A DNA stretch of 33,949 nt, from the NCBI RefSeq assembly GCF_003584015.1, contig NZ_QXFM01000074.1, positions 1 through 33,949 of the forward strand. The letters are read 5' to 3'. Each line of letters starts with the position of its first letter. Position 1 is the first letter of the stretch. Made by a program: the position numbers and the translations under genes. The notes under the pieces are model-generated. The model was not told where the DNA came from. It was given only the letters and a program-made list of their open reading frames with translations, and searched no databases. The stretch comes from Aurantiacibacter xanthus (GTDB lineage Bacteria > Pseudomonadota > Alphaproteobacteria > Sphingomonadales > Sphingomonadaceae). Below are positions 29,198 to 32,100 of the stretch, one piece after another.

Positions 29198-32100
29198 ATG
29201 CCATATGCCCCCTTTGTCCCCTTGCGAGTCTTCTCCAGCTTCTCGATGCTGGAGGCCGCGATCGACCCCAAGCAGATCGCCAAACTGGCGAAAGAGCGCG
29301 GCTTTCCCGCCGTGGCCATCTGCGACCGCAACGGGCTTTACGGTTCCTCCGCCTTTGCGGGCGCCTGCAAGGGCGAGGGGGTGCAACCGCTGATCGGCAC
29401 GCTGCTGGGCGTCGCGCGGGATGAGACCGGGGAAGTGGTCGATTATCTGCCGCTGTTCGCGCAGGGCGAGGAGGGGTGGAACAACCTGTGCCACCTCGTC
29501 AGCCGCGCGCACCTCGACCGTCCGCTGGAGCGAGACCCGCATGTGCAGATGACTGACCTCAAGGGCCACACCGGCGACCTCATTGCGCTGACCGGCGCGG
29601 GCGAGGGCGCGCTGGCGCGGCTGCTGGCCGACGGCAAGGCGGCGCGCGCGGGCGAGCTGCTCGACCGGCTTCAGGCGCTGTTCCCCGGCAAGCTCTACAT
29701 CGAGTTGGCGCGGCGCGGCGATCCGGTGGAGGAGGCCGCCGAGGGCGCGCTGATCGACCTCGCCTATGCCCGCGACCTGCCGCTGGTGGCGACCAACCCC
29801 GCGCACTATGGCGAGCCGCATATGCACAAGGCGCACGACGCCATGCTGTGCATCGCCAACTCGTCGCAGCTCGACAGCGCCGACCGGCCCACCTCGAACG
29901 CCGAGACCTACATCAAGCCTGCCAGCATGATGGAGGAGCTGTTCGCCGATCTGCCCGAGGCTTTGGCCAACACGCTGGTGGTGGCGCAGCGCTGCGCCTT
30001 CGCGCCGCCCAAGCGCAAGCCGATCCTGCCCAGCCTCGCGGGCGATCAGGAGGGCGAGGCACGGATGCTGGAGGAGGACGCGCGCGACGGGCTCATCGCC
30101 CGCCTTAAACCGCTTTACCCTGAGGCCGCTCAGGCTGAGCTTGTCGAAGCCCTGTCTTTTTCTTCCGCCGAGGCGCTGGAGAAGGAAGAACAGTCCTTCG
30201 ACAAGCTCAGGACGAGCGGGATCTGGGACGAGGTGCTGGAGTACAAGAAACGCCTCGATTTCGAGGTCGGGATCATCAAGCGGATGGGCTTTCCCGGCTA
30301 CTTCCTGATCGTTGCCGACTTCATCAAGTGGGCCAAATCACAGGGCATTCCGGTGGGGCCGGGACGCGGCTCGGGTGCGGGCTCGCTGGTGGCCTGGGCG
30401 CTCACCATCACCGATCTCGATCCGATCCGGCTCGGGCTGCTGTTCGAACGTTTCCTCAACCCCGAACGCGTCTCCATGCCCGACTTCGACATCGACTTCT
30501 GCGAAACGCGGCGCGGCGAGGTGATCCGCTATGTGCAGGCCAAATATGGCCACGACCATGTCGCGCAGATCATCACCTTCGGCAAGATGAAGGCCCGCGC
30601 GGTGCTGCGCGATTGCGGGCGCATCCTGCAAATGCCCTATGGTCAGGTCGACCGGCTGACCAAGATGGTGCCCAACCACCCGACCGACCCCTGGACCCTG
30701 CCGCGCACCCTCAACGGCGCCGCGGACTTCAAGCGCGAATATTCGAACGACAACGAGGTCAAACGGCTCGTCGATCTGGCGATGCAGCTGGAGGGTTTCC
30801 CGCGCAACTCCTCCACCCACGCGGCGGGCGTGGTGATCGGCGACCGTCCGCTGAGCCAATTGGTCCCGCTTTACCGCGATCCGCGCTCGGACATGCCGGT
30901 GACGCAGTTCGACATGAAGCACGTGGAAGACAGCGGGCTGGTCAAGTTCGACTTCCTCGGCCTCAAGACGCTGTCGGTGCTGCGCAAGGCGGTCGACCTT
31001 CTCGCGCGGCGCGGGATCGCGGTGGAACTGGACAAGCTCGCCTGGGACGATCCGGCGGTGTTCGAACTGTTGAAGCGCGGCGATACGGTCGGCGTGTTCC
31101 AGCTCGAATCGGAAGGCATGCGCCGCACGCTGACTGCGGTAAAGCCCACAAAATTCGAGGATATTATCGCGCTGGTGTCGCTTTACCGCCCCGGCCCGAT
31201 GGACAACATCCCGAGCTTCGGCAGGCGCAAGGCGGGCGAAGAGGAGATCATCTACCCGCACGAAAAGCTGAAGGGCATCTTGGAAGAGACCTACGGCATT
31301 TTCGTCTATCAGGAACAGGTGATGCAGGCCGCGCAGATCCTCGCGGGCTATTCGCTCGGCGACGCCGACCTGCTGCGCCGCGCCATGGGCAAGAAGATCC
31401 AGGCCGAGATGGACGCCCAGCGCCTGCGCTTCTGCGAGGGCTGCAAGGAGGTCTCGGGCATCGAGAAGGCCGAGGCCAACGCGCTGTTCGACTTGATCGA
31501 CAAGTTCGCGGGCTATGGCTTCAACAAGTCGCACGCCGCCGCCTATGCGCTGCTCGCCTATCAGACCGCATGGCTGAAGGCGCATTACCCGGAGGAGTTC
31601 TACGCCGGGTCGATGTGCTTCGACATGCACCAGTCGGAAAAGCTGGCAGTCTTCGTCGACGACCTGCGGCGCAACGGGCTGAAGCTGCTCGGCCCCTGCA
31701 TCAACCATTCGGAGGCCGAGTTCCACGTCGAGCAGACCGACGAGGGCTATGCCGTGCGCTTTGCCTTAGCGGGCCTCAGGAACGTGGGCGAAAAGGCGAT
31801 GGAGCAGGTGGTGGCCGAGCGCGAGGCGCGCGGGGCCTTCACCAGCCTCACCGACGTGTTCGAGCGCATGCCCGCAGGCGCGATGAACCGCCGCCAGCTC
31901 GAAAGCCTTGCTGCCTCGGGGGCCTTCGATGTGCTCGAACCCAACCGCGCCAAGGTGCTCGCCAATGCCGACATGCTGATGGCGGTCGCCGATGCCGCGA
32001 GCCGCGAGCGTTCAAGCGGGCAGGCGGGCCTGTTCGGCGGCGATGACCATGCCGAGCCCGAGGTGCGTCTGGTGGAGGCAAAACCATGGCCGCGCGCCGA

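Follow-up and report, generated by a model that had tools for sequence, protein, structure and literature searches.

The dnaE locus and its in-frame element

The analysed stretch of DNA (the window) comprises 33,949 nucleotides of the forward strand of contig NZ_QXFM01000074.1 (positions 1 to 33,949; assembly GCF_003584015.1) from Aurantiacibacter xanthus, a member of the Sphingomonadaceae. It harbors dnaE, the gene for the alpha subunit of DNA polymerase III, and a palindromic element of the type of repetitive extragenic palindromes (REPs) lies in the reading frame of this gene, after the PHP domain and before the palm. The features concerned are:

29198..32764, plus strand: dnaE, DNA polymerase III subunit alpha, long-linker form, 1188 aa (open frame, NF004226, E. 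coli DnaE matches in the PDB)
30126..30219, plus strand: complete REP dimer (REPIN-like), 94 nt, residues 310-341 in frame (boundaries from comparison with 53 other dimers of the genome)
30135..30149, plus strand: left 15-bp inverted arm, CTGAGCTTGTCGAAG, within the codons for AELVEA
30196..30210, plus strand: right 15-bp inverted arm, CTTCGACAAGCTCAG, within the codons for SFDKLR
30118..30227, plus strand: predicted RNA hairpin over the element, -63.1 kcal/mol, z -5.96, none of 200 shuffles as low (RNA folding)

The open frame of 1188 codons is named by the NCBIfam model NF004226 with 1290.8 bits (cut-off 1002), and the best PDB sequence matches of its product are E. coli DnaE chains. The two 15-bp arms are perfect complements of each other. 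They are embedded in an inverted repeat of 38 nt with 79% complementarity and 34 nt between the arms, the longest of five inverted pairs reported for positions 29001-33000 at distances of up to 200. A 14-nt core of the arm occurs at three sites in the window with up to two mismatches, namely both arms and one site with two mismatches, against 0.34 expected; this count was reached in none of 100 shuffles.

An earlier interpretation of these letters without database searches (the sequence-only reading) had placed the arms at the same coordinates, which direct sequence comparison bore out. It had drawn the element from 30131 to 30218. Its presence and frame stand, while its extent is larger, from 30126 to 30219 (residues 310-341) with the ends CCGCTC...GAGCGG. 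The shift of 28 residues relative to E. coli DnaE was likewise recovered, residue 348 being aligned with E. coli residue 320, as was the position between PHP domain and palm. Taken jointly with the history proposed below, the probable explanation is that the stretch is a dimer of two inverted REP units and a spacer, derived from the genome's own high-copy family and located in the PHP-palm linker of DnaE. The open frame and the codon constraint described below suggest that the segment is translated.

The REP family of the host genome

The genome contains 148 matches (76 + 72) to CCTTCGACAAGCTCAG with at most one mismatch, while the reversed control yielded none. The proposal of a REP-derived, high-copy element was confirmed by this count; an arm unique in the genome would have spoken against it. 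With 4.38 Mb, the genome is larger than those of 39 other members of the genus compared (2.2-3.9 Mb). It holds the most REP matches among 48 genomes checked, across which the counts extend from 0 to 147.

The surroundings of the 100 listed of the 148 matches were examined and merged into 73 distinct places. They contain 58 different REP dimers including that of dnaE, all in a single orientation and with an arm spacing of mostly 57-66 nt, and one further pair in the opposite orientation. The spacing of the dnaE dimer is 62. A consensus half was built from the 53 other dimers with a spacing of up to 70 (106 halves). The halves of the dnaE dimer match this 32-nt consensus at 25 and 30 positions, compared with a mean of 27.5 and a range of 22-31 for the other halves. 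Its left stem type (AGGC..AGCC) is absent from the 106 halves, and the nearest types, GGGC..AGCC and GGGC..AGCT, account for four of them. The dnaE dimer is therefore a family member and not a copy of the common stem types.

A chance palindrome is excluded by the 148 matches against none, by the shuffle test and by the comparison of the full dimer. An Rfam scan gave only seven matches (E 0.0054-0.97, 14.6-23.6 bits), all below the cut-offs of 45-196, and membership in an Rfam RNA family was rejected on this ground.

The linker in related bacteria

Linker length was measured on both strands between the anchors PILPSLAGD and GFPGYFLIVADFI at 170 loci, which represent 129 distinct sequences. Exactly 71 residues were found at 104 of the 170 loci. 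Among the distinct sphingomonad sequences, 74 have 71 residues and 51 have 96-103; the other four have 79, 104, 108 and 117. The insert of 25-32 residues in 51 of 129 sequences belongs to a set enriched for long forms, since several searches retained those sequences that best matched the segment of the window. In an even draw of the order, a long-form match at dnaE was present in at least 34 of 396 genomes.

The DnaE clade of the window has four members (window, G062, G020 and G025). The segment was expected to be absent from sister strains, but all four carry it, two with worn arms; the anchor distances in G062, G020 and G025 are 103, 102 and 102 residues, compared with 71 in the short form. 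A recent insertion missing from the sisters was rejected accordingly.

The place of the insert is nearly constant. Of the 51 long forms, 50 have a lead-in of the Y[YW]P type at an unchanged residue offset; only L090, with four extra residues upstream, departs from this. Where the arms are still recognisable, in six forms, the left one begins at offset 118, and 129 nt separate the start of the right one from the downstream anchor. Long inserts of different genera share a YYP[ED]-like lead-in, and one large group also shares the exit G.WDEV..Y..RL. The spacer peptides are alike between genera (S.EALE..EQSF), whereas the spacers of the other dimers of the host genome vary widely.

In a search across the class, 109 of 115 genomes were matched, including that of the window, and 57 of the 108 others were looked at. 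All 46 genomes with both flanking pieces have linkers 22-38 residues shorter than that of the window. Eleven were matched in one stretch, eight of them with 78-79 residues between the anchors. The linker of E. coli DnaE is a short form as well. The short form looks ancestral, because linkers elsewhere in the class are mostly short. Linker length also varies without REP arms, with 79 residues in L129 and 108 in L133. In Sphingomonas gilva (L119) a REP pair is found in the DnaE linker 18 nt further on, and the linker of Sphingomonas sp. 37zxx (L132) carries an unrelated insert.

Wear of the arms

Six of the 51 long forms have recognisable arms, and 45 are worn (Table 1). In the worn forms the mean REP match is 9.62 of 18 on the left and 7.53 on the right. 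Other parts of the same genes give 5.45 and 5.37, and none of eight codon shifts exceeds 7.11 and 5.56. The left arm exceeds its own gene at p<0.05 in 25 of 45 forms and the right arm in seven, the same seven passing on both arms; the 45 rows are related to one another, and these counts are not independent. Right-arm matches lie close to background in the main Novosphingobium groups.

Table 1. REP matches of the arms (left + right, each of 18) in long forms of DnaE
Arm-bearing: window, 18 + 18
Arm-bearing: Porphyrobacter UBA7686 (L061), 18 + 17
Arm-bearing: G062, 17 + 17
Arm-bearing: G405, 18 + 16
Arm-bearing: G377, 18 + 15
Arm-bearing: G232, 14 + 18
Worn: L172, 15 + 12
Worn: L062, 13 + 13
Worn: L097, 12 + 13
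Worn: L032, 12 + 11
Worn, others: lower, down to background

By these comparisons, the REP origin of the insert is shown for the six arm-bearing forms and likely for the seven worn forms with both arms significant. For the remaining worn inserts, position and intermediate forms point to the same origin. The sequence-only reading would have given way if the segment were present and conserved across distant Sphingomonadales. This came true in part, as many Sphingomonadaceae have a worn version, yet seven of the 45 worn forms are still REP-like on both arms.

Among the arm-bearing forms, comparison of window with L061 shows changes in 9 of 12 spacer codons, in 17 of 21 codons of the upstream cassette and in 5 of 15 of the downstream one, against 2 of 17 arm codons. 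Other pairs stand out less: 3 of 10 right-arm codons are changed between L061 and G377, and the arms of window and G232 show 3 changes among 7 codons and 3 among 10. REP copy number as the keeper of fresh arms was rejected with 48 hand-chosen genomes, among them G409, G410 and G332 with many REP matches and worn arms.

Protein constraint and predicted fold

Codons were compared in 15 pairs of long forms, with some rows in two pairs; a sixteenth pair was dropped for unequal length. The insert showed 128 replaced and 121 silent codons, and the flanks showed 427 and 1774. Random single changes in the insert of the window would give a ratio of replaced to silent of about 3:1. The pair with the lowest replacement (L098-L109) has 3 replaced and 13 silent insert codons, and window-G062 has 5 and 5. 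On the whole, the insert appears to be under loose protein constraint, weaker than that of the rest of the gene.

An AlphaFold2 prediction of the window DnaE, based on 48 sequences, gave a best model with a mean predicted local distance difference test score (pLDDT) of 79.9 (66-75 in the four others) and a predicted template modeling score of 0.65. The blocks of residues 311-340 reach a pLDDT of 89-92, with helices at 309-319, 324-329 and 335-339. A fold search with the predicted model returned the DnaE fold. The insert is presumably exposed on the surface of DnaE.

In-frame REPs in other genes

Seven entries (six loci) of the 73 examined places fall within open frames that have a coding score on either side of the REP, the score having been trained on dnaE alone. 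Three of the genes, dnaE, truB (L013) and trmD (L027), were confirmed by NCBIfam as conserved genes with an in-frame REP. The open frames L226 and L243 bear REPs as well and are without support as conserved genes. At L210, a single REP unit stands in an open frame directly before the likely start of a gene presumably corresponding to uppS, a label given without a search.

The host trmD (L027/L248) has an in-frame REP dimer in a loop of TrmD. This gene was read in 30 of 40 genomes of the genus: two have a REP pair (window and G061), five have other inserts, G062 has a remnant, and 22 are short. The five other inserts (L250-L254) are different, of similar size, and located in the same loop. The remnant in G062 (L255) consists of 17 nt of REP with one base changed, at the place of the whole dimer in the host genome. 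Apparently, the dimer was lost in frame and left a scar. Part of the TrmD insert of G003 (..GVSTALDTNG.., L250) resembles the insert peptide in the DnaE of G064 (..GFSTALETNG.., L308).

The host truB (L013/L278) also contains an in-frame REP dimer, with a wider arm spacing of 85 nt. Among 30 of 40 genomes read in the genus, a REP pair was found in the window, G062 and G022, and one arm in G061. G008 has a different long insert (L286), which resembles the translation of another REP type. The other 25 genomes have 77-85 residues in this stretch.

Origin and descent of the element

A tree was built from the flanks without the insert. It comprised 126 rows, three short forms (L086, L117 and L121) having been dropped as too short; the long forms included three rows with other inserts, and a row of 79 residues was grouped with the short forms. 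The distribution of long and short forms on this tree requires at least 16 changes, of which well-supported branches force nine. With a simpler model and 32 hand-picked rows, 15 of them long, the grouping of all long forms in one clade was rejected (difference in log-likelihood 578, approximately unbiased test p-value 1e-144). On this chosen 32-row tree, one origin by descent is rejected, leaving repeated insertion or exchange by recombination.

Within the window clade, flank identity is 90-95% in each of five pairs examined. The segment is 88% identical between window and G062 and 82% between G020 and G025. Across the two pairs its identity is 56-62% (three comparisons), which looks as though a different version of the segment had reached one of them. 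In a second clade, L061 and G377 are long while L070 and L072 are short, with a flank identity of 86-93% (three pairs compared); the residues adjoining the insert also differ between the two groups. The fresh arms in otherwise distant genes would speak for repeated arrival or renewal. The alike spacer peptides would speak for a common origin, which the present sample does not separate from repeated arrival.

The proposed course starts from a linker that would tolerate stop-free insertions in multiples of three. REP dimers may have entered it more than once, or a few times with later transfer from lineage to lineage by recombination of dnaE segments. After entry the DNA palindrome would wear away, since only the peptide is kept, and the retained peptide may settle as a small helical extension. 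The data can be explained without assigning the insert a separate function in the polymerase.

Several observations weigh against this account. No match to the Y1_Tnp transposase (PF01797) was obtained in the host genome, a domain present in 3 of 40 genomes of the genus and in 5 of 14 control genomes. In the pairs L076-L102 (16 replaced, 3 silent) and L068-L185 (16 and 9), little or no constraint on the insert is visible. Three of the 57 class genomes looked at, out of 108 others matched, are not plainly short, namely G064 with 99 residues and a different insert, G481 with 94, and G514, which could not be anchored. With only 7 of 45 worn forms passing on both arms, most Novosphingobium-type inserts are no more than presumed to be of REP origin, and a shared helix motif may account for part of the left-arm signal (25 of 45). 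G409, G410 and G332 have 103-146 REP matches, yet their dnaE arms are worn. Furthermore, only two of the 17 arm codons distinguish window and L061, neither of them silently. This divergence is far below that of spacer, cassette or flanks, and plain decay of a single old insertion fails to explain it.

The strongest competitor assumes that several lineages acquired REPs independently and fairly recently at this one place, through a site preference or for lack of another tolerated position. It is a serious contender, though given less credence than the course proposed above. Near-perfect arms occur in lineages whose flanks differ from those of the window in 13-24% of bases, other inserts have entered the same linker (S. 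gilva L119, Sphingomonas 37zxx L132 and G064 L308), and the loops of TrmD and TruB hold varied inserts too. The spacer peptides are nevertheless alike between genera, although the spacers of the dimers within the host genome vary widely. More tentatively, a selfish palindrome, once captured, might have moved between genera as a small recombining cassette and have become a fixed, folded helical element of DnaE in Novosphingobium, so that the polymerase that copies the repeat carries the repeat.

One ancient REP insertion in an early ancestor of the Sphingomonadaceae, with vertical inheritance and repeated precise losses restoring the 71-residue form, is unlikely. The same position in 50 of 51 forms, the common YYP[ED]-like lead-in and the exit G.WDEV..Y..RL across genera in one large group agree with it. 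Losses of this kind would have had to be exact, as 104 of 170 loci have 71 residues and no leftover length, whereas the lone apparent loss seen, in trmD of G062, leaves 17 nt of REP with one base changed. In addition, a single clade was rejected on the 32-row set, and short linkers prevail in the class.

Still less probable is a selected hairpin in the dnaE mRNA or in the DNA itself, which might, for instance, slow ribosomes between the PHP and polymerase domains. The predicted fold of the window element is strong (z -5.96), and codon-shuffle RNA folding gave z values from -4.25 to -7.81 in four of the five other arm-bearing forms. The remaining arm-bearing form, L174, reached only -1.45. Eight of nine worn forms are without a strong fold (-0.2 to 0.7; L172, -3.15), and the arms of G062, G377 and G232 have changed on one side without a matching change opposite. 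The hairpin is therefore probably not what selection keeps. In L172 (G355), which has worn arms, one T-A to G-C change affects both sides of a pair and is a single possible compensatory change.

Ordinary variation in linker length that happens to resemble a REP has next to no plausibility: length does vary without REP arms (L129, L133), yet the match spans the whole 94-nt build of the dimer, including its two ends and its internal pyrimidine and purine tracts, which refutes this explanation for the window.

Comparison with known systems

The sequence-only reading had called the protein-coding use of such a palindrome unusual, which is too strong. PMC3733652 describes in-frame REPs, read as 20-30 residues, in genes of replication and repair and in RNA genes. 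The examples given there are dnaE of R. conorii, dnaE2 of others, and the truB genes of E. litoralis and S. alaskensis (PMC3733652). Like the REPs of the host, they are described there as dimers in frame inside genes, many of these genes serving DNA synthesis or repair. That account sorts REPs by GTAG or CGTC tags. The CGTC REPs are said to be without a dedicated transposase and have CGTC at one end, followed by a stem of 8-9 bp that opens with complementary A-T pairs (PMC3733652). The consensus half of the host, CCGCTCGTCCTGAGCTTGTCGAAGGACTG, contains CGTC, the G and T of which are held by only 58% and 53% of the 106 halves, and its stem does not begin with A, T. The host family does not fit the CGTC stem as described.

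REPIN is a name known from the Pseudomonas context. REPINs and the dimers of the host both consist of two inverted REPs and a spacer and are dispersed in the genome. The host has the two inverted units, a near-constant spacer and many dispersed copies (58 dimers and 148 single-unit matches). It differs from REPIN carriers in that a search with PF01797 found no transposase of the RAYT (REP-associated tyrosine transposase) type, Y1_Tnp, in its genome. The trmD dimer varies in its presence between the host and relatives, an indirect sign at most of copies that move.

Four spellings of the arm, looked for in full texts, returned no papers, a weak negative, as sequence letters rarely appear there. 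Judged by title and the start of the abstract, none of the papers listed on in-frame REPs, REPINs, palindromic elements and sphingomonad repeats deals with sphingomonad dnaE. A series of wear over genera at one site of dnaE is not found in the consulted parts of PMC3733652 and PMC3767692, supplements aside.

Such a series leads, at a single site in an essential enzyme, from an intact palindrome to a protein segment that is folded and under loose constraint, outside Rickettsia and partly in culturable species. The loops of DnaE, TrmD and TruB suggest themselves as recurrent landing places.

Rickettsia palindromic elements (RPEs) belong to another bacterial order than the Sphingomonadales of the host. 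In PMC3767692, RPE-4 and RPE-6 (also RPE-7) are reported in the rickettsial DNA polymerase III alpha, with inserts at one site in the orthologues compared, some without a typical RPE left. One old insertion is weighed there against hot spots (PMC3767692), the same question as that raised by the dnaE REP, and dense genome sampling combined with simple genetics makes it testable in the sphingomonads. The dnaE element is, like an RPE, an in-frame palindromic insert in a conserved gene. It appears to work like one, as the sequence-only reading had supposed, and is not filed as one. In-frame palindromes in dnaE and similar genes are already published (PMC3733652; PMC3767692), and the element of A. 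xanthus is a further case, in another order.
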